Origin: Massiliimalia timonensis
GTDB taxonomy: Bacteria > Bacillota > Clostridia > Oscillospirales > Ruminococcaceae
Reading direction: 5' to 3'
Length of the DNA: 64,000 nucleotides
Assembly (NCBI RefSeq): GCF_900186585.1
Contig: NZ_FYDD01000004.1
Coordinates: 62,001 to 126,000 of the forward strand
The notes under the pieces are model-generated. The model was not told where the DNA came from. It saw only the letters and a program-made list of their open reading frames with translations, and did not search any database. Positions 1 through 42,880 of this stretch are shown here, one piece after another (position 1 is the stretch's first letter; each line of letters opens with the position of its first letter). The position numbers were made by a program, and so were the translations under genes.

Positions 1-3000
1 CCCTCCGGCTAAAGAGTATTCCTGTTTCCCGGTCAGCGGGTCGGTGATCGGCAGTCCAGTTTCTTCGTCCAGCACCAAATACTGGCCGGTTTCCTGTCCG
101 TCGATTATTTCAGCAGCAACTGCCTGCCCGTCACGGTTTGCGGGATAGCCTTTTACTGTCAGCAGTTCTACCTTTACCCCATTGATCCCCGGATCGTCCT
201 CTTTCCCGTCAAAGTCCAGATCAGTTGTCTTGTTCTTTAACTGGATCCGTCCGGTCTTTTCTTCTACGCCGTAATCGCCTTCTCCGTCATCTGGAACAGT
301 GCTGTAATCCGCGTCGTTCCAAACGTAGCTTCCAATATAGCCCCGTCCGGCAGGCGCATTCGTATAAACGCCCGCCCGTACCAATTCGATCCGGCCGCTG
401 TTCCAATGCGCAACAAAGGTATTCCAAGCGCTGAAATCTTTTACCGCTTCGTTATACTGGACTGTTGCGTTTACTGCATCCTCTGACATTTGAAGCGTAC
501 CAACGTATTCCGGCAGGTTCAGCGGCGCATGCATGTCAAAGAACAGCCGCAAACGGTTGTTAGCCAAGATGGTATAGTCGTCCGCCATCTGTACCCAGAC
601 CGCGCGGATCCCCTTGATCAGGGTTTCCTTTTCTTCCCCGTCATCCAACGCCATCAGTTCATCCAGTTTTACAAAGTATTTCGCCTTTGCCTGGTCGCTT
701 GCCCGCAGCTCATCGTACGTTTCTTTTTTGGACATCGCTTCCTGATCCGGCAGGCTGCTAATATCATTGAGCACAAAATCAGAGCCCTGTTTTACGATCG
801 GTCCGACCCAGACCTCATAGTCTTTGTTCCGGACCAATTCGACCGAACCGGTTTCCACTCCGCCGGCAGAGGCGGCAAAGTCTAATACCCGAATGGTAGA
901 AGGGTCGATCCAGCCATGCCATTTAGAGTTCCTTGGGATTTTCTGATTGGTGCTGGTGTCAAGGTTTTTGATCTCATAGTCATCCAGATACGGCAGGACA
1001 TCATAGAAAACGCCCTCTGTATAATTCTGAGATTCACTCTTATTGATCATGGAAACCTTGTACTCATAAGTCCCACCTTCTGGGACAGGGGTGGCGATCT
1101 CGGTCTGATTGCTGACCAGATCTGTGGTTACGGTCTTGTTCTGTGACACAGAGGAAACCGTTTTAAATGCGATCGCATTAGAAGAACGGCTGACTCCCAT
1201 TTCCACTGTTTCGGTGTTGTTATTGACATCATAGTTGTCGTATACCAGCACCAGGCTGTCCAACGAGCTGCCCTGAGATTTAGTATATGGCTCAAAAGCG
1301 CCTTTTTTAAATCCATAGGCCTTGGACTGCAAAAGATCGGTCGGCACAGCGTTCCCGTCGGTTTCTTTTACCGGCAGCATAAACTCGATCTTCAGGGTCT
1401 GCCCTGCTTCCAAGGTTCCGGTAAAGTAGTAGTTTAAGATCTTGCGCTGGTTGGTGGTCTTGTCGATCACCTTGGTCGTAAAGGTCGGCGATTCCTGCGT
1501 CAGCTGCAATCCGTCCGGAATATTTTTTAGTTCCTCCGGCGTCAGGATCGTCCCGTCTTCATTCTGCACATACCAGGTCCACAGCGGTGTTTTATTGTCC
1601 AGATTTTCGGTGACCTTATGGGCTTCGTCCGTTTCATCTTCCATCTGCCCGTAAGCGTCGCCAATATAATAATCACCCTGATAGAAACCATCCGCTCCCG
1701 GCTCCTGATAATCCACATACTGGAAATCATCCTCACGAAGCCGGTCGATATACGGCACTGCTACAGAAATATTGGGATTGGATACGTTATCCTGCACAAT
1801 ATCAGGATCCTGTTTACTGCTGATACTGGAGTAGCTGACCTTATATTTCAACATCGTACTGCTGCTGGAATCAATAATGACGTTGTTATCCCATTTATAC
1901 CCTTTGATCGGGCCGCCGGTAAAGTAAAGCACATCGATCCCTAAATCTACGGTCGGCACTTCCGGGTCAACATAATACCCTCCGCGTGCACGTTCAGAAG
2001 TGAGCGTGTGCTTGCGGTCATCATATTGCGGGAACCCTGTTACAAAGTGATTGCTGTGTTTGTTCTTGCCATCGTCATCATTCAAATCACGCCGTCTGGT
2101 GTTCAGTTCAATATATGCGCTGTTATCCTGAACATCTTGAGCCAGCTCGTCCTTGTTGTAACGTTCAGGATCAACATCATCCATCTCCTGCTTTCCATCC
2201 AACTGGTCGGAAGCGTCCACATCCAAGCGGAAGCCCGCCGGGACTGGATAGTAAATCGGCGCCTGTTCTGCGCTGTAGGTCACCCCTTCTTCAGAGATAA
2301 AGCCCTGTGTTTTAATGACCCAGCGAACCTGATAAATCTGGCGCTGATACTGTGGATAGTCCTTTCCAATGTCGATGGTGGCGTTTTCATCCAGCCGGTA
2401 ACCGCCCTGTTTGCCAAGCGTTATCCAGCCATTGCTATCATTCGCCCCCGGATAATAATACCCAGTTTCATCCCATGGCTCCTCCAATGGCAGCACCTGT
2501 AGGTAGACCCGCAAATTTTCTTCCAAGATCCGGCGTGTTTCGGCGTCAAGTTCTGATTCCGGAATCGTATCCGGGATCTCCCAGCGGCCAGTCCGGATCT
2601 TATTCAGCGTCTGCCGCAGCGCTTTTTTACTGTTGTCATGAAACGCTTCGTCCGGCGTCCCTTCATCTGTTCCATAATATGGAACATTGTAGTTGACGAT
2701 GAAAGTGTTTACCGCAGCTGTTTCATTGACAGCCTGATCCATCCACATCCACATGTTATAAGCAGAACGAACATGCGCGTCTTCCATAATGTAACGATCA
2801 GCCGTTGGGTCGTTGACCTGAAGCCTCTGTTTCCCTGTGTCTACCCGCACCGTGCTTCGCGGTTTTTGAATATTGACCTGCGCAGTCCTTGCAGTGACAT
2901 AATTGGCGTCATATTCCTGGTCCCGGTCATGATCCTGCGTCAGATCTCCCTGGTCGTCTTTTTCATCGCTGACCTGTTCCGCCGGTCCCCACAGGCAAAG

Positions 3001-6000
3001 AGCCTGCGCCTGTTCATAGAACCGATGCCCATCCGGCGTTTCGACCTTGTAACCGTTATAGTTATCGGCCGGGATTCGGTCTGCTTCAGCTTCCGGAGCA
3101 AATGTCCCATCGTCCCGCAGCGCATAATAGCCGTCTGTATCATGGATTGTGGTATATACCTGCGAGGTATAGCCGCTCCATACATCCGGGGCATCCAGCA
3201 CGCCGGTATCGGAAACATTGTCCACACGGGTACGGATCTTAAAGTTCATCCAGCTCCCGCTCGGGAAATATCCCGCTGGCTTTTCGCCCTGAACATAGGA
3301 AGCGTAGTCGGTAAAGCCTTCCGATTTCGGGGTAGTCACCTCAAAGGTGACGATCTGACCTTTGTGGTTGAGATCCGTATCCTTCCATTCCTCGGAAGAG
3401 TCAGAGATCAGCTGTACGCCCCAGCCCTGTTCGCGCATCTCTTTCTGGCTTAAGGTCACTGTTTTCTTTTTCTCCGCGTCATAATACTCAATGCAGAAAT
3501 CATTCTCATTGTTATACATGTACTGATCTGCAGAGTTTTCAACATTCCATCCTGCGGAACCGGAATAATTCACCACTGACGGCAGATGGAACGAGAATAC
3601 CATCTTCGCATGATGGACAGCGCCCATCTGTTCATAGTTGGCAGCAGAGCTTGGCTCATTGACCACCTTGGCGCTGTACCAGATATCATCGGAATAATCA
3701 AAGGCCTGGGTGTCATCACCGCCCTCTTTTTCCCCTAACGCGTTTTTGTCCGGCGCCACATAATGTTCCACCGACAGCCTTGGTGACGAGGTGCGGATCT
3801 TCAGCGTATTAGTGACGCCTAAATCAGCAAATGCCTGCGTGCTCAAGTCGTCGCTGTGGGTGTTCGCCCCGTTTTGGTCAAAGTCTTTCTGGGTGCTGCT
3901 CAACACCGCCTTGTCATTTAACTGTGGATAGTCCTCCACGTTGAGCTCCTGCGTTTCTTCATACTTTGTCAGCTTGCCGATCAGGCCGGTATTTTGCTCA
4001 TAGGTATGGTTCAGCTTATCATCAGGGAGATTCCCCATCGTATGGTAAGCAACGCTGTTCCCACCGTTATAGGTATATGTGTAGGTGTGCTTGATTGCAT
4101 CCAAACGGTCGTCCGGGATCTGCGCGCCGTTGGTGTTCGGATACAGATGCTGTCCCAGTGAACCAACCGTATACGGATTAACATAACTGGTGCTTTCACC
4201 CGAGCGCTTGATATCCTCGTCAACAATATACTTAAAGCCCGGCATTCTGCTGGTCAAGTAGGTGCGGTTGTCCTGATAGTTGCGGTAGAGCTCATCCTCT
4301 TCCCCGGCTGTGCCGTCCTTGCTGGTCGCAGCCTTTGGCGCGGCATAGGTAAAGGTATCCAGTGAAAAGATATTCGCTTTCTGAGAAGCCAGCCGCGCTT
4401 CTTTTGCAATGTCCCCGCCGTCTGCCGCTGCAGCCGGTGTAAAGGTGACCACATAACGGCCTTCCTTCTCTCCGGTAGGCTGGCCGCTGCTGTCCACCCG
4501 GTCGATCAGCTCGTAGGTGACCCGCGCGTCATATTTTTCCTGTTCCGCCGGCACCGACGCCGCCGTTTTCACATTCTGTCCCGCCGCCAGATCCCGCTGA
4601 TACAGAGTCCAGGATACCTCCTTGCCGGCGTTTACAGCATTATCCTGACTGAACAGCGTACCATCTGTTGCTACCGGAACAATGCCGTAAGGCAGGATAT
4701 TTGTGATGACAGGCAAAATCAGATCGCCCCTGGCGCCGCCGTCTACCTCATAGTTATGGACAAACTTCGCGTAATCATAGTTATATTTGCTCTCCGCATT
4801 CGGCGCATACTGATCCAGCCAGTATTTGTTTTCCACATGGATGTTGATCTTGCTGGTATCGCCCTCGGTATCAAAGTAGTAATCCGAACGGGTCGCCCCG
4901 GTCAAATCATCCCCAGCGGTGCTCCACAAGCGCACAAATGGTTTCCGCATGACCGCGCGGGTACCAGTTTGCGCATACAGGTCGCTCTTGTCAGCGGTCG
5001 TGTAGTTGTCATATTTATTTTGGGTCCGGGTCCCCATGACATCGCCGCCACTTAGCTGGACCTCGTTATCCTGAATGTTATAGCCATCAATATACGGCGT
5101 GTTCGGCGAACCAACATGGTACATATACTTATTATCATTTACATTATAGTAATGATACCACATATAATCCATGCCGTAGCATTGGTTGTGGCGCATCCGC
5201 TCCTTGGTGGTGCCTTCCCAATGGTCATAGTCCAATATCTGGTAATAATAGTAGTTCTTAGAGTCCGGCTTCATATACGGCCTTGTAACGACACGGTCGT
5301 ACCAATACTGGTTTTCATTGGTCAGGTAAACGTTGCTTGGGATATTTACCCGAATCTTATAGCCCTTTTCTGTTCCGCGGTTAAACCATTTGTTCAGTCC
5401 ATGCTTCACCGTGATCTTCAATACCCACGGCTGTGTATTCTGCGACTCATCACTTCTGGAATAATAGGTATCATCGGTATCCGGATTCCACTGCGGGTCC
5501 TGCGGGCGGTTCGGCGCCTTGTAGCCTTTATCCTCCCCACTAGGAGTTTGCAGTACTTCTACCTCAATATCACCCGGGTCGATCGGCGTATAACCGTCGT
5601 TGAGGGTATATCCGCTGGTAGAAACAGAGCTGAGCACCTCCGCTGTAATAGAGGAAGGATCAAAATTGCCGTTTTCGTCCAGCTTGGGACGGATGCCCCT
5701 TGGCATAGTATAAGTAAATTCCACACCATCCAGCTTCCAGTCACCGTAATTGAGCGCGTACAAACGGGTGGTGAAGTCTTCATTATACTGCAATGCCACA
5801 ACACTGCTGTCGTCAGTCAGCTTCCGGTACCCATTGGCCAGCGATTCACTTCCGGTATGATTCTCATTAGCGCTGTAATTTGGATTTGCTGGGAAATTGG
5901 TGTAACCATCCCCTTCGGTCTTTTCATAGATCCGGTTCTTACCCGCCATTTCGCTGGCAGTTACCAGCCACGCCTTTTGCAGGTGCAGCCGGGTCTGGCT

Positions 6001-9000
6001 CCATAAAATCGGCATCCGTTGGTCTAAATCATTGGCTTTTCCATCCCAGTCGCAGTCAAACTGGGTCCTTGGGGACAGGACAAACCTCCACCAGTCACGC
6101 AATCGGTTATTGCTGTTTACCATCTTTTGGGAAGACGGCATATCGTCAGAATTTTTATTGGTTGTATCCCCATAATAGGTCGCTGCCTGGTGATTGTTTG
6201 CCGGATTGATGTCTTCGTCAAATAGCACCCCATTATCTCCAAGATAGTTGTCTCTCCATTGATAAGAATTTTGTGATATATCTTTCGCCGAACCCGGAAT
6301 CTGGGTCTGGCTACCGTTTAGATATTCCCAGCGGTCCACCTGTTCGTTCTTCTGCCCGGACAGGCCAATATCGTGCATCAGGTAATCCAGATCCATCAAC
6401 CGGTTTTGGTTGTTGATCGCACGGGCCTCCTCATTGGTTGCAGTAGAAAATGGGAAAGACTCCCCATTCGCATGCAGCGCACTATGCGCAAGGGTATAGT
6501 ACTCCCCTACCCGCGGGAAATATCCTGGATGCTGATCGTCTGTACTGGCAAGGTCACGGTCCTGGTCTACATAAACCATCGGCAGATCATCTTTTCGAGC
6601 TTTGACCTTGTACCAGATCTCAATGGTATCCCCTACTTCTACGCGGACAGCCTGCCCATTCTGCTTTTCAAAGCGCAGTTCATACACCGTAAAGTCGATC
6701 TGCTTGCTGTTTGCCGCGCTCGGCTTCAAGTCGTCAAACAGTTTCGCATCTTTATTAACCAATGTGTTTGTCTGCGATTTGGGGTAAACCATCGCCCCGC
6801 CGTAATCTTCTCCTCTGACAGGATGCGTTGCGGCGACCTGAAGCTTCGCGTCAGGATTCTTTTCCTTTCCGGTAATATCCAGCCAGCGAACTGTAAAGTT
6901 TTCGTTCTCCAAATCTTCGGAGGACAGATATTCCGGTAACTTGTCGTAGAAAACAGGATCGATCAAAACCCCTTGGTCAGCAGTCTGTTTCCCGTTAGAA
7001 GCTTTGTGGTTATTGATCAGTACGATCTTCTGCCACATTTCCTCCTCCGGACGGTAGCCGACCTTCTGGGTGGCATTGATGTTGATTGCAGCTTCAGCCT
7101 CAGCCTCTGTATCAAACACCTGAGTGTAGAAATTCACTTCCGGATTTTCACGGTACACCTGCCTGGTATAAACTTTATCCTCTGTCAGGGACACGGTTTC
7201 GTTCAGCGTGACCTGTGTGGCGTCGTCTTGGACTGTTTTTGTTTCAACGTTCGGATGGTTATGGACCACCTCTGTATCGATGCTGGCTAAATAGCTTTCT
7301 GCCATCGCAGTGGTATCGGCCGGTTTCCGAATATCCTCGTAACGGCCTACCCCGATCAGTTCGACATTATCAAATGTAAGCTCATTGCCGTCTGTGCCGA
7401 ACGCGTCGATTTCATAATAAGTCCACCGGATCTTCTGAACTGTGCGCAGGAACGCCTCATCCTCATTCCCGGTACTGGTTATCCAGTCATTTTCCCCTTC
7501 ACACCAGTATTCCAGCTTAATGTCAGGTTTTGTGTTGGCATCTGCCAGCAAAGCAGGATAACCGATGACTGGATTTTGGGTTAAGGTAAAGCCGCGGTAA
7601 CCGGCCGGGTCAAGCAGGGATATGGTGACCTGCATTGATTCCAGATAATGGCGGGTATCATTCTTGATACTGGAAATAGTCAGTTTTGCGCCTTGCTCGT
7701 CATAGGCATATTCCTCATCATCAAAGCTGTACGTTGCCACCAGCTCGGTGGTGTCTTTAAACGTAACATCACTGACCATGCGGGATTCATATACTTGGTT
7801 TGATTTCCCATTCACTGCTCCCGTATAGTTCCGGGTATAAGTGACCTCTCCGCCCAAATCATTTAGCGTCTGGTACTTTCCAGTGGTGGAGTTAATATTT
7901 CGTGTTTCAATGCAGTACTGCGGGTAAGCATGCTTTGAGGCCGCAGTTACCCAAGCGTTTGCCTGCAAATTTTCGCCTTCAAACGCTGGCTTTTGCGCTG
8001 TATCGGTCAATTCCTCGGTAAGTTGGGTCGTAATACGGATAGTAATCCCTGTTCCAGCAGGGATCTGCGCCCCGTCTTTCCCGCCGGTGATCACAAGCTC
8101 ACGGTAATAGTTCTGGCTTCCGTCATTTCCTAGGGAATAGTCTATTTGCGGCTGTGCCGCAATTTTGGCACCGGAAGCATCCGTCATTTCAGCGGTAATG
8201 TCCGCGCTGTCAATCCCCGTTGTATTGGAAACGATCTCCCATTTTACCAGCCGCTGGCCTTCTGGAACAGCAAAGTGCATGGTCGGGCGTTCCAGCGGGA
8301 TGGAGCTGTCGTCTTTGGCAGAAGTACTCAGCGTGTATTCCAAATAATCATATGGAACCAGGTGGTCTTTGTCCACCTCCAGCCGGCTGCCGGGATTTTT
8401 ATCATTATCATAAGCAAAGCCGGTATTCCCTCCGCCCAGATCACGGTTTCTGCTCAATCTGGTCACCATGGTGGCAACTAGGTTGCTTAGGACAAAGTGG
8501 TCCTCTCCGTCAGAGTTAGGGGTGATCAGGTTGCTGTCGTAAATATCAGCGTTCGGGTCTACCGAAGTAAAGGTAGCCGACAGCCTATTGTAAAAATAGT
8601 TTCCGTCTATCAGCCAGCCAGTGCTACTTGAGTAAGCATCATTAGCGGCAAACCTATTCGGGTTTTTCCCAAAGGACGGGGTGGAATCAGCAGTCCATTC
8701 ATCTTTGTCAAAATCCTCCGGCGTGCGGTCCACATATACGCCGTCGTACCAATATGCGTACCCGTCTGCTTTATCTGCCGACAGGTACTGCCCGTTCTCC
8801 AGTACAGAATTCGGGTCTTCACGGTCTGGACGGACTGCCTCGAACACGATCTGGAATTTATCCACAAACGCCTTGCTGTATGTAACAAAATCTGTCTTGG
8901 AGTTTGCATAGGAGCTTACCAGATCCGGATTTTCCCGAAGCAGCTGCTCCACGTCTATTTCATAGCAGCCCGGTTTTGATGCAGACAGGCTAAGATCCTG

Positions 9001-12000
9001 GCTGGAAACCGGGATCTCCTTTGTCTTTCCATTCGCGGTCAGCACCAGTTTGGAAACGCGGAACCAATCCCCGGTAACAAAGGCTTCCGGGATATAGATG
9101 TGCTGTAACCGATAATAGGGATTCATCGTGTTGGTCGCGTTTGCCGACTGGACCCGCGCCACCTTATTGACCCCGTCGTTATTCCCTGTATTGTTCTGAT
9201 TGTACAGCTTTACACCAAATTCCGCAACATTCGGGTCTAAGTTATTGGTTTGGTAATCTGTAATATCACGGGTGCCTTGTTGACGGATCTGATACCCGGC
9301 ATGGAAATCGATCAAAAAGCCCATCAGGCGTGCTGTTTCTGTATAGGTCGCGTTGCTATAGGAGGTTTCCTGAATGATGTTCACATAATTTTTGCCCGGC
9401 TCATAATCCGTTTTGGTGATCGGCTGAATCGTGTTGGTGCCGTCCTTATCCGGGTTCTTTTGTTTAATGGTGTACGGGCGGCCGTGAATGACCAGGTCTG
9501 TATCCGCATTGGTCCCGTTTCCATCCGGGGTGCCTTTCGACCCGACCTCTTTGTTGTATTCGCCGTTCCCCATCATGTCTGTTAGATGGATGTCATAGCT
9601 GGTCAAAAACTGTCCCGGCTTCAGGGTCAGTACGCCGTTAGAAACGCTTTCCTCGGCTGAGGTATCGCTGTATTCCAGTTTTAAGGTCAGCACCCCGCCG
9701 GAATCAGTCAGGTCATTGCGGGTAAGCACAAGCTGCTTCTGATTGGTCTTGTTGCCACTGTTATCCACGTCCTCAAGGTTCAGCACCATTTTGTCAAAAT
9801 ACTTGGAGATAGCAGGCTTTAATTCCAACCCAGTCGCAAGGAAGCCGTAGTAGGAATAGGTTGCATCCGGGCGGATCATCGGCATGGTGTCGCGTAAGAT
9901 CACCTCGTCCGCATATCCGATCTTTCCGCTCCAGTCATCCGGATCCTGATCACGCCATGTATCCAGATTTCCGGTCGTTTCATAGTCATAACCACTGGTC
10001 TGATAACGCGCAGTCCGACTATTCCGGAAAAAGCTGACAACAAACTGGTTATCCATCCCAAATTCTGCCTTGTCGTTTACATCATTGGTCGGGATCGTTG
10101 TTGCTCCTTTATAAACCCGGTCATAATCATGGACCGTGTGCACCATGGTTTTGCTGAATAAATGCCCCGCTTTATATTCACGTTCTACATAGCTTCCATA
10201 GTAATAATATCCCCGATAATAATCCTTAAAGCTCCACGGTGATTTTGTTGTCTGCGCCCCGTCAGATACACGTTCTATACTACGACCGCCGCCAATGGTC
10301 ATCTTGGTGGTAGCTGTCGCCACATTTTTTCCTGCTTTGTTAGGCGTTTCATCCATACGGTAAAACCGGCCGCTGACCTCAAACATATATTTGCTGGCTT
10401 CATTGCTATCTTGATACCAAGTGCCAAAATCGGGATTGTTCGCAATCCGCTGGCCATCTTTTTCGGTGTACTGTTCCTGATTGATTTTCAGCGTAATATC
10501 AATCTTGGTAACAGGGTTCTGCGGCAGAGTTTCACCGTATTGCTCAGGCGCCAAATAATAGTCCTCCAAGTTATTGGAAAAAGCGGCGTCCTTATTCCCC
10601 TTCAGGAGATTTACCCTGCAGTATTTGTTTCCATTGGAATCCTCTTCCACTGCCCCGTATACCAGCTCGCTTTTGTCCAGCTCATAACTGGCGCCGTCTT
10701 TCTGGTACACCTTGATCTTCTGCACATAGTCTTTTGCCCGTGGGTCGATCTTCAAATAGTGGCTGTCAAAATAATCCTCCGGCAGGTCGATCGTTGTAAC
10801 CAGCTCCGCCGCGGTATTAAAGGACTGTGTGCGGACATAATCCATGCCCTCATGTTCCTGACGAGTAACCTCAAAGGGACGAACCGTCCCTGCATTCAGA
10901 TACTGCCGGAAATCGACTGCAAAAGAACCGAGCGCCTTATAACCCACTTCCAGCTCGGAATTATCCCCCCACTTGCTTCCGCCGGAAGAACGATACTCTG
11001 TGCGGACATGTTCCAGCGGTGTGGAAGTCTTGCTGTATTTTTTAGTTGGTTCGTTATCGTTATAGCCGGCTGTGATGACCGTGTCAAAATACATCTTGGA
11101 CACATAAGCAAGAACGTCATCCTTGGCCTTGCTCTGGAAGCTGTCAACATTGCGCAGTCCATCCAAAAAGTTCACAGAGTCGACCTTCAGCACTTCCTTG
11201 CTGCCGATCTCTGCGTCTTCATACCCGTAAAAATCCACATAGTATTCTTTGCTGTCGTCAGTTTCTGTGATCTGGTACTGTTTCCCGGTCAAAACTAACG
11301 AAACCAGCCCGTTCAGTCCCAGATCCTGTTCCATCTGTTCCCGGTTCACGGTCCAGCCGCCGTCAGCAAGAGGGTACTCCTGCCCGCTTTCAGCACGGAA
11401 CACCTCGCGTCCTGCGTCATAGGTCAGCACCTGCGTGTTGCCGTCAAGGTCTGTCAGGGTGATTTTTTCAAAAGTACGGTAATTTTTCAGGACGTCTTCG
11501 TACAATTTCCATGCGGTGGTGTGGAACCCGCCGGCAGTCTTGTCCAGCTTCAGGGTAAAGGTAGTATCCACATCGTCCAAAACAGAGATAGACTGGTTCA
11601 CCAATTCCGTCCGGAAAATAAAATCCCGGTCATATGGGATCCCCAGTGCCGCTTGGTTTTTATCGGTATTTTCAGTGCTGGCCAAAGAGGATTCTTTCAC
11701 ATCGTCATAGACGATATGGGCATGCGGCAGCTGAGCAGGGCGATCCACCTGAAATGCCGCCGTGCTTTTCACAATATCTTTATCCGTATAAATTTTTGAA
11801 CGCGGAATAAAGGAACACACATTGTCAAGCTTGTCATACCAGTCTGTGTTCCCATAAATTTTCACCTGCAAAGAGGCATCCTGATCCGGGTCAGAATCCG
11901 CAACAGCCAAGCCGTTAAATTTCGTATAGTGGATCCGGATAGATTTTAACTGCGTCAGCGCAGAAAAAGCGTCTTTCGGAATAGAGATCCCTCCGTCAGC

Positions 12001-14964
12001 AGTTCCATAATCCTTTACCAGATCAGCAAACGGGATCTTAAGCTTCGCCTGATCCTGATCCACCGCCTGATTCCAGTCGTAAAACTCGATATAATCGATC
12101 ACGCCCGAACGCACATAAGACGGACCGATTTCGATCCTGTCTGTTCGGAAACCTTGGATCTGATCCGGAGAGCCGCTGTTTGCCTTGTTTCCCACGCTGG
12201 TCAGGTCAAAATCAACGTCAACGATCCCCGCGGAAGATTTGGAACGGTTTTCCACGGTGAATTCATACCAGCCGTTTGCCTTATTCGGCACAGTCAGCGT
12301 CGCAGCGGATTTCCCGTCATAGTTGGCAGTGCCGGTAATGACCGGCTCTATCTTCAAAACATTTAATTTGGCCGCTTTTTCAACAATGTCCTCAGCCATG
12401 TTTGGAATATCGTATTGTGTCTGCCAAACGGCATTTGCTTCATATTCCCCAATTGTATTCGGTGTCCCCAAAATATCTACAAACGCATTTTCAGAGACCT
12501 TGACGTTACCGTCAAAGCTGTCAAAGATAATTTTAGCTTCTTTTAAAATGTCAAAATCCGGCTCTTTTCCCAACCATTGTGAAGCGTCGAGCCTAATTTC
12601 CCCGTTAGAGTCCGCTTTCAATTCATCTTTTTCAAAGACCACTTCTTTTCCATTGATGTCTGTCAGAACGATCTGCTGTACAGCAGCATGGGCAAGCAGT
12701 TGTTTGGATAAACGGACGGTATTTGCCTCCAGCCCGCTGAAATCCTTCGTTTTCGGATCAACTGTTCCAAGCGGTCCAATTTCCAAAACGCCCGGCAGCA
12801 TTTTAGAGATGCTTTCGTTCCCCAGCACATACCGAAGCGAAGACATATCTTCATTCACCGGAACGTCCTGTTTTTCATCCGCTGGTCCTACATCTTCGTT
12901 CCCGTTTTCGCGCAGCACGCCGTGTGTTTCTATGACAGGCTCTGCGCGCTTTGTAGTCAGGGCCGCGCTGTCAGGATCTACCTGTTTATTTTTTTCTACA
13001 ACATAGCCTTCCTTTATTTCAGCGGTGCCAACTGTGTAATACCAGTGTTCAAAGCTTGTGTCGATCTGGTTTTTATACTCCAACAGCCGGTCTACTTCCC
13101 CGGTCACCGCGATCCGACCCTGAAAGGTATCCCCCGCAGGAATCCGTTCTTTAAAGTACAGCTTAAACTTCTGGGCAAACGTCCAGCCGGCATGCTGGTC
13201 CAAATAATCCTGGATCGCCTGGCGCACAGAGTACGTCCACGTCTTGTTCTGCTGTGCATCCACGCTTGTTTGGGCGGATACTCCCAGTTCCTGAAGCGAA
13301 ACCTCTGTTTCTTTCTGGTCCTGATCTAAAAACAGGAACGTCAGCACGTTGTCTTTAAACCAGTCGCCCAGCTCCGGCTCCCGGCCATCCCCGGAGGAGT
13401 TGAGCGTGATCTCCAGTTGATCCAGCCGGAATTCTTCGGGCAGGGTATCGGTCGTCACTGCATTGAACACCGGAACATTTCCTGTGTTGTCAAACCCGTC
13501 CAGATAATAGGTGTCCGTATCGCCGATCGCGATCTCCTTGTTATCTGCGGGGGTCTGTCCGTCTAAAATATATTTGTGATGGTTAAATTCATATTTCTTC
13601 TGGACAAACTGCCACGTTTGCTTCCCCGTATCCTTGGTCCACTCCAAATCACGGCCGCCAAAATAAATAGTGGGCCGGAAAGTAGCCTCACAGTCCAAGG
13701 AAGCGCCAAAGTTATTGGGATACGGCACAGCAACATAATATTCCCGGTAGCTGTGTTTTTCACCCTCAGCAACTGCGTCAGACTTTTCAGGATACAGCTC
13801 AGAATGTTCCTCATCCAGCGGGATCCCGATCGTTCCCGGCAAGGTGTAGTTATATGGCAAAGGATCCCCTAAATTGCTAAACGTGTCCAGATCAAGTTTT
13901 TGACGCTCTGCTTCCGGAATATCCGTAACATCATAGATCAGCGCGCCGCCCTCGTTCGGCTTTCCGATAAAGGTTTTTCTGTAGTCCTCTTCAGAAACAG
14001 CCTCGTTTTTGATTGGGTCCTGACCTTCCACATACTCCCACTGCATCATATCTTTTTCCAGAACGCCGCCTTTTCCCATAGAACCGGTGGTATTCTGTAC
14101 ATACATGATTAGGTTGAAGTGGTCTATCTTACTGGTTACATCCTCCGATTGGTTATCGATCCGCACCTTGTAGACCATATAGTTATACTTATCCCACAAA
14201 ACAGAGGTCTTCACCAAGTCGATCGAAGGCGTCCAAACCAAGTTGGAGTTGACCAGGTTGATGATCCGGATCGCAGAAGGGTCGTCCGCAACAGATCCCG
14301 GCTGAATATCATATCCCGATTCCGAAGTACCGCCTTTTCCGTCATGGTAATAGGCATATCCGCCGCCGATTTTGATGTTGGCGGATTCGTTTTCCGGCAA
14401 ATCGCCAAAGAACCGGCAGGTCAGGTCAAAGGAAAGCGGCTGGTTAGCCGGCACTTGGAACCCATCATAACTTTTCAACAGGATCGTTCCCCGACGGTAC
14501 CCCTCGTTTGCCGCTTCCCCTTCTGAGTTATCTACCAACCAAGTGTCAGATTCTGCCACCTTAGCCTCTATCCCCATCAGTTTGTCTTCCGGGATATTAT
14601 CCGGCTTTGTATCACTGATCGTCATTTTTCCGGTCTCCGGATCAATGTACAGGTACGGCAGCACGATCTTCAGGTATGCTCCAGTCACATATCCCCCGCT
14701 GCTTTGATTCACATTATACCGCATGGAGATCATGAACTGCCTGTCACTGCTTAACAGGTACAGGTTGTCCGAAACCTTGCTGGCCCCGCTTCCCGACATC
14801 TGATCACTTTCAAAGGTGATACTGGCCGACGGGATGGGAACCTCTCTGGGTTCTGCCGCAGAGACGGACGGAACCATGCTCCCTATTACCATATTTAATA
14901 CAAACAAAACCATCATCAGCATGCTGACCGCACGCTGAAAGCCGCTTCTTTTTGAACTTGTCAT
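1..14964 (-). CDS. Giant secreted surface protein with SdrD/SpaA-type B domain (partial, C-terminus outside window)
   Basis: The frame starts at the ATG at 14964 and stays open through position 1, giving 4,988 codons without a stop. I read many stretches across its whole length, and it is continuous. The start has AGGGGG nine bases upstream. Residues 1-37 form a signal peptide: basic SSKRSG, a hydrophobic stretch MLMMVLFVLNMVIG, then a VSA-A cleavage site. The body is acidic and rich in Asp, Asn, Tyr and Trp, with recurrent aromatic strings such as YWYD, and looks like long beta-rich extracellular modules. From about residue 4870 the text becomes typical of an SdrD-type B (Cna-B-like) domain: IGSYVWNDADY, a DFDGKEDDPGINGV linker, VKVELL, then TGQYLVLDEETG. 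Proteins of this kind are wall-linked adhesins, but no sorting signal is visible because the end is missing. No catalytic domain was recognised. It is apparently monocistronic. Confidence 0.9.
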   Translation of the reverse strand, partial: MTSSKRSGFQRAVSMLMMVLFVLNMVIGSMVPSVSAAEPREVPIPSASITFESDQMSGSGASKVSDNLYLLSSDRQFMISMRYNVNQSSGGYVTGAYLKIVLPYLYIDPETGKMTISDTKPDNIPEDKLMGIEAKVAESDTWLVDNSEGEAANEGYRRGTILLKSYDGFQVPANQPLSFDLTCRFFGDLPENESANIKIGGGYAYYHDGKGGTSESGYDIQPGSVADDPSAIRIINLVNSNLVWTPSIDLVKTSVLWDKYNYMVYKVRIDNQSEDVTSKIDHFNLIMYVQNTTGSMGKGGVLEKDMMQWEYVEGQDPIKNEAVSEEDYRKTFIGKPNEGGALIYDVTDIPEAERQKLDLDTFSNLGDPLPYNYTLPGTIGIPLDEEHSELYPEKSDAVAEGEKHSYREYYVAVPYPNNFGASLDCEATFRPTIYFGGRDLEWTKDTGKQTWQFVQKKYEFNHHKYILDGQTPADNKEIAIGDTDTYYLDGFDNTGNVPVFNAVTTDTLPEEFRLDQLEITLNSSGDGREPELGDWFKDNVLTFLFLDQDQKETEVSLQELGVSAQTSVDAQQNKTWTYSVRQAIQDYLDQHAGWTFAQKFKLYFKERIPAGDTFQGRIAVTGEVDRLLEYKNQIDTSFEHWYYTVGTAEIKEGYVVEKNKQVDPDSAALTTKRAEPVIETHGVLRENGNEDVGPADEKQDVPVNEDMSSLRYVLGNESISKMLPGVLEIGPLGTVDPKTKDFSGLEANTVRLSKQLLAHAAVQQIVLTDINGKEVVFEKDELKADSNGEIRLDASQWLGKEPDFDILKEAKIIFDSFDGNVKVSENAFVDILGTPNTIGEYEANAVWQTQYDIPNMAEDIVEKAAKLNVLKIEPVITGTANYDGKSAATLTVPNKANGWYEFTVENRSKSSAGIVDVDFDLTSVGNKANSGSPDQIQGFRTDRIEIGPSYVRSGVIDYIEFYDWNQAVDQDQAKLKIPFADLVKDYGTADGGISIPKDAFSALTQLKSIRIHYTKFNGLAVADSDPDQDASLQVKIYGNTDWYDKLDNVCSFIPRSKIYTDKDIVKSTAAFQVDRPAQLPHAHIVYDDVKESSLASTENTDKNQAALGIPYDRDFIFRTELVNQSISVLDDVDTTFTLKLDKTAGGFHTTAWKLYEDVLKNYRTFEKITLTDLDGNTQVLTYDAGREVFRAESGQEYPLADGGWTVNREQMEQDLGLNGLVSLVLTGKQYQITETDDSKEYYVDFYGYEDAEIGSKEVLKVDSVNFLDGLRNVDSFQSKAKDDVLAYVSKMYFDTVITAGYNDNEPTKKYSKTSTPLEHVRTEYRSSGGSKWGDNSELEVGYKALGSFAVDFRQYLNAGTVRPFEVTRQEHEGMDYVRTQSFNTAAELVTTIDLPEDYFDSHYLKIDPRAKDYVQKIKVYQKDGASYELDKSELVYGAVEEDSNGNKYCRVNLLKGNKDAAFSNNLEDYYLAPEQYGETLPQNPVTKIDITLKINQEQYTEKDGQRIANNPDFGTWYQDSNEASKYMFEVSGRFYRMDETPNKAGKNVATATTKMTIGGGRSIERVSDGAQTTKSPWSFKDYYRGYYYYGSYVEREYKAGHLFSKTMVHTVHDYDRVYKGATTIPTNDVNDKAEFGMDNQFVVSFFRNSRTARYQTSGYDYETTGNLDTWRDQDPDDWSGKIGYADEVILRDTMPMIRPDATYSYYGFLATGLELKPAISKYFDKMVLNLEDVDNSGNKTNQKQLVLTRNDLTDSGGVLTLKLEYSDTSAEESVSNGVLTLKPGQFLTSYDIHLTDMMGNGEYNKEVGSKGTPDGNGTNADTDLVIHGRPYTIKQKNPDKDGTNTIQPITKTDYEPGKNYVNIIQETSYSNATYTETARLMGFLIDFHAGYQIRQQGTRDITDYQTNNLDPNVAEFGVKLYNQNNTGNNDGVNKVARVQSANATNTMNPYYRLQHIYIPEAFVTGDWFRVSKLVLTANGKTKEIPVSSQDLSLSASKPGCYEIDVEQLLRENPDLVSSYANSKTDFVTYSKAFVDKFQIVFEAVRPDREDPNSVLENGQYLSADKADGYAYWYDGVYVDRTPEDFDKDEWTADSTPSFGKNPNRFAANDAYSSSTGWLIDGNYFYNRLSATFTSVDPNADIYDSNLITPNSDGEDHFVLSNLVATMVTRLSRNRDLGGGNTGFAYDNDKNPGSRLEVDKDHLVPYDYLEYTLSTSAKDDSSIPLERPTMHFAVPEGQRLVKWEIVSNTTGIDSADITAEMTDASGAKIAAQPQIDYSLGNDGSQNYYRELVITGGKDGAQIPAGTGITIRITTQLTEELTDTAQKPAFEGENLQANAWVTAASKHAYPQYCIETRNINSTTGKYQTLNDLGGEVTYTRNYTGAVNGKSNQVYESRMVSDVTFKDTTELVATYSFDDEEYAYDEQGAKLTISSIKNDTRHYLESMQVTISLLDPAGYRGFTLTQNPVIGYPALLADANTKPDIKLEYWCEGENDWITSTGNEDEAFLRTVQKIRWTYYEIDAFGTDGNELTFDNVELIGVGRYEDIRKPADTTAMAESYLASIDTEVVHNHPNVETKTVQDDATQVTLNETVSLTEDKVYTRQVYRENPEVNFYTQVFDTEAEAEAAININATQKVGYRPEEEMWQKIVLINNHKASNGKQTADQGVLIDPVFYDKLPEYLSSEDLENENFTVRWLDITGKEKNPDAKLQVAATHPVRGEDYGGAMVYPKSQTNTLVNKDAKLFDDLKPSAANSKQIDFTVYELRFEKQNGQAVRVEVGDTIEIWYKVKARKDDLPMVYVDQDRDLASTDDQHPGYFPRVGEYYTLAHSALHANGESFPFSTATNEEARAINNQNRLMDLDYLMHDIGLSGQKNEQVDRWEYLNGSQTQIPGSAKDISQNSYQWRDNYLGDNGVLFDEDINPANNHQAATYYGDTTNKNSDDMPSSQKMVNSNNRLRDWWRFVLSPRTQFDCDWDGKANDLDQRMPILWSQTRLHLQKAWLVTASEMAGKNRIYEKTEGDGYTNFPANPNYSANENHTGSESLANGYRKLTDDSSVVALQYNEDFTTRLYALNYGDWKLDGVEFTYTMPRGIRPKLDENGNFDPSSITAEVLSSVSTSGYTLNDGYTPIDPGDIEVEVLQTPSGEDKGYKAPNRPQDPQWNPDTDDTYYSRSDESQNTQPWVLKITVKHGLNKWFNRGTEKGYKIRVNIPSNVYLTNENQYWYDRVVTRPYMKPDSKNYYYYQILDYDHWEGTTKERMRHNQCYGMDYMWYHYYNVNDNKYMYHVGSPNTPYIDGYNIQDNEVQLSGGDVMGTRTQNKYDNYTTADKSDLYAQTGTRAVMRKPFVRLWSTAGDDLTGATRSDYYFDTEGDTSKINIHVENKYWLDQYAPNAESKYNYDYAKFVHNYEVDGGARGDLILPVITNILPYGIVPVATDGTLFSQDNAVNAGKEVSWTLYQRDLAAGQNVKTAASVPAEQEKYDARVTYELIDRVDSSGQPTGEKEGRYVVTFTPAAAADGGDIAKEARLASQKANIFSLDTFTYAAPKAATSKDGTAGEEDELYRNYQDNRTYLTSRMPGFKYIVDEDIKRSGESTSYVNPYTVGSLGQHLYPNTNGAQIPDDRLDAIKHTYTYTYNGGNSVAYHTMGNLPDDKLNHTYEQNTGLIGKLTKYEETQELNVEDYPQLNDKAVLSSTQKDFDQNGANTHSDDLSTQAFADLGVTNTLKIRTSSPRLSVEHYVAPDKNALGEKEGGDDTQAFDYSDDIWYSAKVVNEPSSAANYEQMGAVHHAKMVFSFHLPSVVNYSGSAGWNVENSADQYMYNNENDFCIEYYDAEKKKTVTLSQKEMREQGWGVQLISDSSEEWKDTDLNHKGQIVTFEVTTPKSEGFTDYASYVQGEKPAGYFPSGSWMNFKIRTRVDNVSDTGVLDAPDVWSGYTSQVYTTIHDTDGYYALRDDGTFAPEAEADRIPADNYNGYKVETPDGHRFYEQAQALCLWGPAEQVSDEKDDQGDLTQDHDRDQEYDANYVTARTAQVNIQKPRSTVRVDTGKQRLQVNDPTADRYIMEDAHVRSAYNMWMWMDQAVNETAAVNTFIVNYNVPYYGTDEGTPDEAFHDNSKKALRQTLNKIRTGRWEIPDTIPESELDAETRRILEENLRVYLQVLPLEEPWDETGYYYPGANDSNGWITLGKQGGYRLDENATIDIGKDYPQYQRQIYQVRWVIKTQGFISEEGVTYSAEQAPIYYPVPAGFRLDVDASDQLDGKQEMDDVDPERYNKDELAQDVQDNSAYIELNTRRRDLNDDDGKNKHSNHFVTGFPQYDDRKHTLTSERARGGYYVDPEVPTVDLGIDVLYFTGGPIKGYKWDNNVIIDSSSSTMLKYKVSYSSISSKQDPDIVQDNVSNPNISVAVPYIDRLREDDFQYVDYQEPGADGFYQGDYYIGDAYGQMEDETDEAHKVTENLDNKTPLWTWYVQNEDGTILTPEELKNIPDGLQLTQESPTFTTKVIDKTTNQRKILNYYFTGTLEAGQTLKIEFMLPVKETDGNAVPTDLLQSKAYGFKKGAFEPYTKSQGSSLDSLVLVYDNYDVNNNTETVEMGVSRSSNAIAFKTVSSVSQNKTVTTDLVSNQTEIATPVPEGGTYEYKVSMINKSESQNYTEGVFYDVLPYLDDYEIKNLDTSTNQKIPRNSKWHGWIDPSTIRVLDFAASAGGVETGSVELVRNKDYEVWVGPIVKQGSDFVLNDISSLPDQEAMSKKETYDELRASDQAKAKYFVKLDELMALDDGEEKETLIKGIRAVWVQMADDYTILANNRLRLFFDMHAPLNLPEYVGTLQMSEDAVNATVQYNEAVKDFSAWNTFVAHWNSGRIELVRAGVYTNAPAGRGYIGSYVWNDADYSTVPDDGEGDYGVEEKTGRIQLKNKTTDLDFDGKEDDPGINGVKVELLTVKGYPANRDGQAVAAEIIDGQETGQYLVLDEETGLPITDPLTGKQEYSLAGG

Positions 14965-30308: not shown

Positions 30309-30385
30309 CGAGGCGTAGCTCAGTTTGGTAGAGTGCTTGGTTTGGGACCAAGATGCCGCAGGTTCGAGTCCTGTCGCCTCGACCA
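30309..30385 (+). tRNA. tRNA-Pro (TGG)
   Basis: The 77-base gene folds as a cloverleaf. The acceptor stem is CGAGGCG/CGCCTCG with an encoded CCA end, the anticodon loop is TTTGGGA (anticodon TGG), and the T-arm is GGTTCGAGTCC. Confidence 0.97.
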
Positions 30386-30401
30386 ATTTCTTAAAAAGAT
30401 A

Positions 30402-30430
30402 TTGACAGAGTTTTTTGGATATGCTATAAT
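30402..30430 (+). promoter_or_regulatory. Second tRNA promoter
   Basis: TTGACA (30402-30407) and TATAAT (30425-30430) are separated by 17 bp and lie between tRNA-Pro and tRNA-Thr, giving the last two tRNAs their own promoter. Confidence 0.85.
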
Positions 30431-30446
30431 ATCCAAGTGCTTAAAT

Positions 30447-30522
30447 GCTGGTGTAGCTCAGTTGGTAGAGCAGCTGATTTGTAATCAGCAGGTCAGGGGT
30501 TCGAGTCCGTTCACCAGCTCCA
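30447..30522 (+). tRNA. tRNA-Thr (TGT)
   Basis: The 76-base cloverleaf has acceptor stem GCTGGTG/CACCAGC, anticodon stem GCTGA/TCAGC, loop TTTGTAA (anticodon TGT) and an encoded CCA. Confidence 0.97.
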
Positions 30523-30551
30523 ATCTTTTCAAGCATATAATAATTTAATAT

Positions 30552-30637
30552 GGTGGAGTTCCCGAGTGGCCAAAGGGGGCAGACTGTAAATCTGTTGCTT
30601 CTTAGCTTCGATGGTTCGAATCCATCCTCCACCACCA
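30552..30637 (+). tRNA. tRNA-Tyr (GTA)
   Basis: The 86-base class II tRNA has acceptor stem GGTGGAG/CTCCACC, anticodon loop CTGTAAA (anticodon GTA), a long variable arm (TTGCTTCTTAGCTTCGA region) and an encoded CCA. Confidence 0.97.
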
Positions 30638-41170: not shown

Positions 41171-41992
41171 ATGGCAGATTTAATTATTGATAAATTCTAT
41201 CAAAAAATGGCAAATGTCAATTTGGAAGCATTTGGGATACTAGATTCAAGCAATTGTATTCATACATTGGGAACTGATTCCAAAATTATAGGCAGAATAT
41301 TTGAAATGTATGCCCAACCAATACTTGAAGAGATAGCGAAAGAACTTAAATACACCATTAAAACCCCAAAATCTCAAACTGTATATCCAGATTTCGTTTT
41401 ATTTAAACCAGAAAAACCAACAGAAAAAGTTGCCATAGATATAAAAACCACATACATAAACACTGAACAATCAACCATCAAGTTCACTCTTGGATCATAT
41501 GGCTCATATATGCGCAACAACACAAAAAATATAGAATACAAATATACGGATTATATAAAGCATTATGTGATTGGTTTTGTTTATAAACGGAATGGGCTAG
41601 CTCAAGAAAGCCGTGTTTATAAATACGAAGACCGTCAAAAAATAGTATTCCCATATAACGATGTTAAGTATTTTATCGAAGAAAAATATAAAATTTCCGG
41701 TGATAAACCAGGATCTGGAAATACAGAAAATATTGGCTCGTTTCCCACAAAAAACTTTTCTGACTTAAAATACGGAAAAGGCCCATTTAGTGAATTGGGA
41801 CAGGATGTTTTCGATATATATTGGAAATATTATCCTAAATATCGCACTTTCCAAAAAGCCTATACCTCACTAGATGAATTTTTAAACTGGCTTCCTAACA
41901 ACATAGATTCAATAGAGCTACTACACAAATTTGATGCAGAAAGCGTTATGGAAAGTATTTCACGATATAAGTTTATTCATCAAAATAAGTGA
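41171..41992 (+). CDS. Type II restriction endonuclease, EcoRV family
   Basis: The 273-residue protein reads like R.EcoRV over its whole length, including LGTDSKIIGRIFEMYAQPI, PKSQTVYPDFVLFKPEKP and IKFTLGSYGSYMRNNTKNI. The PD-(D/E)xK site falls at Asp74, Asp90 and Lys92, the same numbering as EcoRV. The DNA-reading loop GSGNTENIGS (181-190) corresponds to the EcoRV recognition loop. On this basis the predicted target is GATATC, cut blunt. It is preceded by the controller gene and converges on the cognate methylase. Base composition is clearly more AT-rich than the chromosome, a sign of transfer. Confidence 0.92.
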   Translation: MADLIIDKFYQKMANVNLEAFGILDSSNCIHTLGTDSKIIGRIFEMYAQPILEEIAKELKYTIKTPKSQTVYPDFVLFKPEKPTEKVAIDIKTTYINTEQSTIKFTLGSYGSYMRNNTKNIEYKYTDYIKHYVIGFVYKRNGLAQESRVYKYEDRQKIVFPYNDVKYFIEEKYKISGDKPGSGNTENIGSFPTKNFSDLKYGKGPFSELGQDVFDIYWKYYPKYRTFQKAYTSLDEFLNWLPNNIDSIELLHKFDAESVMESISRYKFIHQNK

Positions 41993-41993
41993 T

Positions 41994-42024
41994 AATAAAG
42001 AAAAGTATATCACTTTTCTTTATT
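41994..42024. terminator. Bidirectional terminator between endonuclease and methylase
   Basis: A perfect 13-bp stem AATAAAGAAAAGT/ACTTTTCTTTATT with a five-base loop lies between the convergent genes. Confidence 0.8.
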
Positions 42025-42025
42025 T

Positions 42026-42880
42026 TTACCTTTTTATCGCCAATACTTCGATCATTGGATGTCTATTGCTTTCTTTAGCGCCTATATGATAAAAATGATT
42101 TTGCTCATGCCAAGTAAAGTCAGACCAAAATTCAAATAAATGATTATTTTTCCTGAACTCATTTTCTTTCCACATAGATAAACAAACATTTGCAGGAGTC
42201 TTATGGGCATATTCTGCAAGCAAAATTGCTTCTTCTTCTGGCCACTCCCCAACATACGAAGTGTCTCTACCTATATATGGAGGGTCAAGATAAATATAAT
42301 CGATTTCACTTGCATTTTCAAAAGCTTTTTGCCAAGAACAGCATTCAAAGATCCAGTCTTTTCCCTTCATGATGTCTGCAACATTTGAAACCTGATTGCA
42401 AATTTTGGTTATGTAAGCTTTTGTAAATCTATTAGGTTTCTGACAAAAAGGGACATTAAAATTTCCTTGCCTGTTAAATCTAATCATTCCATTAAAATCT
42501 GACCTATTTAAAAACAGAAAATAGAGCGGCTCTCCATTGGTATTAAATTCTTCACGCATTTTTTTATAATATTCTGCACCATATTTTTCGAGTTCTCTTC
42601 CATGGAACTCTAAAAAATCTCTGACTATATTACTCGTAATAGTTCCATTTTGTATTCCTTGATAAAATGCAATGACATATCTGTTCTTATCTATTAGTTT
42701 TGCTCTTTTGGGTGCAATGTTAAATGCAACAACGCCTGTTCCAACAAACGGCTCTATCCATGTGCCATTTTCGTTAATTTTAACCTTCTCTTTGATAAAT
42801 GGAACAATTTTTGTTTTTATCCCCTGACATTTGATTGGTGGAACTAATACCCTAGATTTTTCCATGTTAAGTTTTGACAT
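42026..42880 (-). CDS. DNA adenine N6-methyltransferase, M.EcoRV type (Dam family)
   Basis: This 284-residue alpha-type methylase closely follows M.EcoRV: VLVPPIKCQGIKTKIVPFIK, the SAM motif EPFVGTGVVAFN (43-54), NRSDFNGMIRFNRQGNFNVP, the catalytic DPPY (199-202) and HFYHIGAKESNRHPM. It should methylate an adenine in the GATATC site and protect the host. The gene is the second of a minus-strand operon headed by an XRE-type regulator at 42899-43111, an arrangement not found in the classic EcoRV system. Confidence 0.92.
   Translation of the reverse strand: MSKLNMEKSRVLVPPIKCQGIKTKIVPFIKEKVKINENGTWIEPFVGTGVVAFNIAPKRAKLIDKNRYVIAFYQGIQNGTITSNIVRDFLEFHGRELEKYGAEYYKKMREEFNTNGEPLYFLFLNRSDFNGMIRFNRQGNFNVPFCQKPNRFTKAYITKICNQVSNVADIMKGKDWIFECCSWQKAFENASEIDYIYLDPPYIGRDTSYVGEWPEEEAILLAEYAHKTPANVCLSMWKENEFRKNNHLFEFWSDFTWHEQNHFYHIGAKESNRHPMIEVLAIKR

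Follow-up and report, generated by a model that had tools for sequence, protein, structure and literature searches.

Giant bacterial surface proteins are commonly regarded as lineage-specific oddities, and the usual role of those which are anchored in the wall is adhesion. Among the described systems the Sdr/MSCRAMM proteins of staphylococci (SdrD, SdrC) carry a beta-sandwich-type N-terminal head on a stalk of B domains (PF17210) ahead of the wall-sorting signal. In 2013 two giant LPXTG genes, AEQU_0093 (74,766 nt) and AEQU_1251 (74,247 nt), were reported from Adlercreutzia equolifaciens (PMC3778203). The Giant1-5 surface proteins of Apilactobacillus kunkeei are extracellular and 3,000-8,000 aa long, and Giant1-4 have an N-terminal beta-solenoid (PMC12863079).

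The gene presented here lies partly in a window, that is the whole stretch of 64,000 nucleotides which was analysed (G000:C1:62001-126000, contig C1 being NZ_FYDD01000004.1), from a genome of 2.7 Mb in 4 contigs; Ruminococcus callidus (contig NZ_KI260344.1) is a member of the same family as this genome. The initial annotation proposed an unbroken frame of at least 4,988 codons coding for a surface protein above 550 kDa, to be followed leftwards to its stop and any LPXTG motif. The minus strand does read 4,988 codons from an ATG with zero stops, and the probability of such a frame (ln P about -240 with uniform codons, -263 with the actual base composition) is so low that a chance origin is ruled out. 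Reading the same contig leftwards, the gene runs 5,097 bases past the left edge of the window and closes with a stop at C1:56904, so that the complete, intact gene counts 6,686 codons (C1:56904-76964, minus strand). The protein has 6,686 residues, a pI of 4.5 and a computed mass of 750 kDa, well in line with the proposed size. On the plus strand, the ORFs listed within 1..14964 represent antisense shadows of this giant frame. The features inside the window are collected in Table 1.

Table 1. Parts of the giant gene that fall within the window (window positions).
Feature	Position	Strand	Basis or remark
First 4,988 codons of the giant	1..14964	-	sequence; rest of the gene left of the window
Signal peptide and start, aa 1-37	14854..14964	-	sequence and hydropathy scan
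Head aa 36-1090, predicted all-beta, tandem beta-sandwich modules	11695..14859	-	model, mean pLDDT 81
Three hidden paralogous modules of ~200 aa, aa ~700-1290	11095..12867	-	profile-profile comparison only
Head aa 2480-3620, family-signature region	4105..7527	-	model, pLDDT 62
Head aa 4150-4890, last conserved part ahead of the stalk	295..2517	-	alignment
Stalk start, divergent SdrD-type B module from ~aa 4868	1..363	-	sequence and B-domain searches

Both ends of the protein have the features of an exported and wall-sorted product. The signal peptide noticed at the start of the frame is confirmed by the hydropathy scan as a hydrophobic segment at aa 8-37 (...SVSA/AEP), and at the C-terminus ELPKTGDNLW is followed by a hydrophobic segment and KRKNRKK, which is an LPXTG-type end of the kind sought to the left. 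More B domains were also expected there: eight clear ones are found with our own profile at aa 5275-6644 (C1:57033-61142, outside the window), and two further divergent B-type starts can be seen by eye at about aa 4870 and 5110. A search of the giant with PF17210 (SdrD_B) gives 8 stretches (2.1e-74), and the divergent module within the window is the one seen at its first reading. The number of B domains differs among relatives, being 8 here, 14-15 in several and 25 in Eubacterium sp. HAN012. Two sortase genes (PF04203, over cut-off) are found elsewhere in the genome. By its signal peptide, its LPKTG-TM-K/R tail and these sortases the giant is a predicted sortase substrate, most likely displayed on the cell wall of a gut-type bacterium. 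It should be mentioned that a separate frame of 1,931 codons in the same genome has a strong SdrD_B domain (61 bits, G000:C1:302871-303167) and contains repeat-rich surface-protein sequence.

The giant resembles the Sdr proteins in the B domains ahead of the wall-sorting signal and in the beta-sandwich-type head on the stalk. Unlike these, it has a head of 4,900 aa of unrelated sequence and a signal peptide without YSIRK. No Pfam or NCBIfam match to an A-region family of the ligand-binding (N2/N3) type is found in aa 1-4900, no serine-aspartate repeat stands ahead of the anchor in its sequence, and the NCBIfam model MSCRAMM_SdrD, whose cut-off is 2,500 bits, scores 63, gained from the B domains only. 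Membership of the Sdr family was therefore rejected.

The head, N-terminal to the stalk, is about 4,900 residues long and non-repetitive. It had first been described as modules of no known family, which holds for Pfam and NCBIfam, where aa 1-4900 give nothing over cut-off (sub-threshold DUF11/DUF7619 only), but giants in two phyla have this head in common, so the modules are not confined to the present protein. The DUF11 / B_ant_repeat model (TIGR01451) scores 13.5 bits against a cut-off of 24, and a kinship at the level of the fold is possible. A PDB sequence search with the head gave zero matches. A check for internal repeats by BLAST and phmmer self-comparison revealed no recent ones of note; profile-profile comparison finds paralogous modules at aa 700-1290 alone and gives no support to a duplication of 2,000 residues suggested by weak phmmer pairs, which was thus rejected.

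Structure prediction had also been recommended, and on the parts of the head where it was run the fold is not exotic. The AlphaFold2 model of aa 36-1090 (14 sequences) has a mean pLDDT of 81 and strands predominate; that of aa 2480-3620, a region with the signature motifs PVITNILPYGIVPV, LHLQKAWL, SPNTPYIDGYNI and TGTRAVMRKPFVR, is of moderate confidence (pLDDT 62). Both models resemble beta-sandwich modules in tandem, and their Foldseek matches are beta-sandwich chains including integrin alpha ectodomains and, from bacteria, antigen I/II C-terminal domains, UafA and the pilins SpaD and RrgB. Foldseek gave no full-length structural match of the head models (TM < 0.2 by query length). The antigen I/II C-terminal domains and isopeptide pilins (SpaP, AspA, BspA, SpaD, RrgB) are thus the nearest bacterial folds, although the matches are local and of low TM and no sequence family is held in common. 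With the A. kunkeei Giant1-5 the protein has in common that these are giant extracellular proteins of Gram-positives; an N-terminal beta-solenoid is not seen, since the model of aa 36-1090 consists of beta-sandwiches and its best Foldseek hits include no solenoid.

That the protein might be a lineage orphan was an idea which arose from a query with aa 2401-4900 (0 matches, 100 relatives) and an empty contig scan with a single sequence. It was rejected when queries with the N-terminal half and with an alignment found collinear relatives. The search with aa 1-2500 of 398 genomes of the family gave strong relatives in three other genomes; two of these have long frames collinear along the entire head (about 4,900 aa at ~30-40% identity, BLAST), and in the third a contig end leaves an N-terminal fragment only. 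The distribution is patchy, with one other carrier among 394 genomes of the order. The alignment query against genome contigs gave 22 loci, which belong to Oscillospiraceae, Ruminococcus, Eubacterium, a Blautia MAG, Beduini massiliensis (two copies), Candidatus Stoquefichus and an Erysipelothrix MAG, as well as Adlercreutzia, Slackia, Leucobacter chironomi and Arthrobacter citreus. Judged from these alignments, giants of Bacillota and Actinomycetota have the head in common as one conserved unit of collinear sequence.

The frames of the relatives vary a good deal in length, from 5,100 codons in Arthrobacter and 5,447 in Leucobacter through ~6,300-8,300 in the majority of Bacillota, where contig ends truncate several frames, and 11,651 in Eubacterium sp. 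HAN012 to 11,666-34,927 in Eggerthellaceae isolates. With Eggerthellaceae frames of 22,000-35,000 codons, the family ranks, to our knowledge, with the largest proteins known from bacteria. Slackia sp. ZJ119 has a single frame of 34,927 codons (G773:C39:9969-114749) ending in LPQTS and a membrane segment, and Adlercreutzia caecimuris one of 24,922 codons (G768:C1:912897-987662) ending in LPQTG. In both the head blocks of the window's giant are found in the same order, spread across ~14,000-19,000 residues, which indicates that size differs mainly by insertion between fixed blocks. The Adlercreutzia giants resemble the present one as giant sortase substrates, with the head-block order kept in A. 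caecimuris, but they are 3-5 times longer with large insertions between the blocks; the family link rests on A. caecimuris, the A. equolifaciens genes being compared by description. Slackia sp. ZJ119 and A. caecimuris each have additional giant frames of 12,000-30,000 codons, and a PASTA match (PF03793, 29.7 bits), at an odd site for this domain, is found in the insertions of the Adlercreutzia giant (L131:5001-20000).

For the closest pair of relatives (L079 and L081) dN/dS is 0.09 over 6,930 codons and lies between 0.05 and 0.17 in every window of 500 codons. The relatives are under purifying selection along the full length, and the low value in each window means that the entire protein is kept, not a tip alone. 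Since the order is kept across two phyla and the relatives are under selection, the head can be treated as a functional unit which may be named, divided into modules and tested.

Directly downstream of the giant gene, on the same strand and outside the window, lies a gene for a membrane-tethered protein of 513 aa (C1:55295-56833), here called the helper gene. It belongs to SBP_bac_5 (PF00496; 106.6 bits against a cut-off of 32.4, 2e-30), as do the corresponding genes in 5/5 relatives scanned. The helper adjoins the giant in all 14 Bacillota copies with a readable gene end (three of these with giant head and tail on separate contigs), at 27-70 bp from the stop of the giant where measured. A sortase gene follows the helper directly in five of the 14 loci, and apart from this the flanking genes are not generally common among loci. 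Helper scores are 250-650 bits in giant-bearing genomes and at most 71 bits in three giant-free genomes of the same genera, which by this measure hold ordinary SBPs only. Giant and helper are co-inherited: the head and helper trees agree with a Mantel r of 0.84 (p 0.0001), a correlation which also reflects any vertical descent in common, and the Erysipelotrichales member Stoquefichus falls among Clostridia in both trees, a placement that suggests joint movement of the two genes. Beside the Actinomycetota giants examined, that of A. caecimuris among them, no SBP_bac_5 helper is found, so the helper is not required throughout the family. Between the giant stop and the helper start there is a G+C-rich stem-loop of 11 pairs with a weak T tail (C1:56868-56897), possibly an attenuator of the helper, which could uncouple the expression of the two genes. 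In Beduini massiliensis (NZ_CDPP01000006.1) two giant-helper pairs (L075 and L078) are found on one contig, ~370 kb apart.

The giant LPXTG genes of Adlercreutzia were known; the common giant family and its helper gene appear undescribed. For the head family, its cross-phylum link and the helper gene no description was found in the open literature.

The explanation which we find somewhat probable is that the giant is a sortase-anchored adhesive filament whose conserved multi-module head is carried by a B-domain stalk of variable length, and that a dedicated helper assists its folding or assembly outside the cytoplasm. From the parts of the giant it is proposed that the protein is exported by Sec and, once across the membrane, folds into a long row of beta-sandwich modules, that its LPKTG end is joined to peptidoglycan, and that the stalk, of variable length between relatives, projects the head of ~4,900 residues off the wall. 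The head would probably be a long adhesive or bridging surface towards host mucus, matrix or other cells, and not an enzyme. SBP_bac_5 proteins are rather indifferent to sequence and bind peptides in an extended conformation, so the helper could keep beta segments of the giant bound as they emerge, until folding or sorting. OppA-type proteins are reported to have chaperone-like activity (PMC7442780; review PMC8144458). This activity, the lack of an adjacent transporter and the linkage to the giant alone are the reasons for favouring a role as chaperone.

The main rival to the chaperone role takes the SBP_bac_5 partner as a ligand collector or sensor, to which the head passes (glyco)peptides for a distant Opp-type importer or for signalling. 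SBP_bac_5 is an oligopeptide- and nickel-binding family whose solved members are transport binding proteins, and the partner is invariably beside the giant in Bacillota. By sequence the helper is indeed a family member like OppA, DppA and NikA; unlike them, it is linked to a giant surface protein and not to a permease; neither here nor in the relatives do the flanking stretches that were read contain an Opp/Dpp-type permease or ATPase next to the pair. The helper sequences are also far diverged from the transport SBPs and most lack a lipobox, as does the one here, which has an N-terminal hydrophobic anchor. We consider the collector role doubtful.

It could also be argued that the giant is mainly structural, a spacer, fibre or coat which shields or spaces the cell without a specific ligand. 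The long acidic chain of tandem beta-sandwiches, the variable stalk and the growth of the Eggerthellaceae relatives via insertion between blocks are what one would expect of such a structure. A non-repetitive, collinear head exceeds the needs of a pure spacer, however, and the purifying selection in the relatives and the aromatic-rich motifs conserved through the entire head make a purely structural role rather improbable. That the frame is an assembly artefact, or decayed or untranslated, is a question prompted by its extreme length alone and is rejected as extremely improbable on the relatives' dN/dS and the chance calculation, on the 6,686 codons without a stop and on intact collinear frames in relatives from independent isolate and MAG assemblies.

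If the giant is an anchored adhesive filament served by its helper, a wider formulation would be that a Bacillota/Actinomycetota family of giant sortase substrates has gone from ~5,000 to ~35,000 residues by insertion, and that in Bacillota an oligopeptide-binding protein has turned into a chaperone with one client; this is more tentative, possible but not something to be counted upon. The linked SBP_bac_5 gene offers a testable answer to how Gram-positives handle a secreted beta protein of 750 kDa to several megadaltons.

Elsewhere in the window, at 41171-42880, an EcoRV-like restriction endonuclease gene (PF09233, 1.6e-53) faces a D12-class adenine methyltransferase gene. This stretch is AT-rich (G+C 0.33-0.37 against ~0.49), and the pair looks like an acquired restriction-modification system. 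Three clustered tRNA genes, Pro-TGG, Thr-TGT and Tyr-GTA, are located at 30309-30637.
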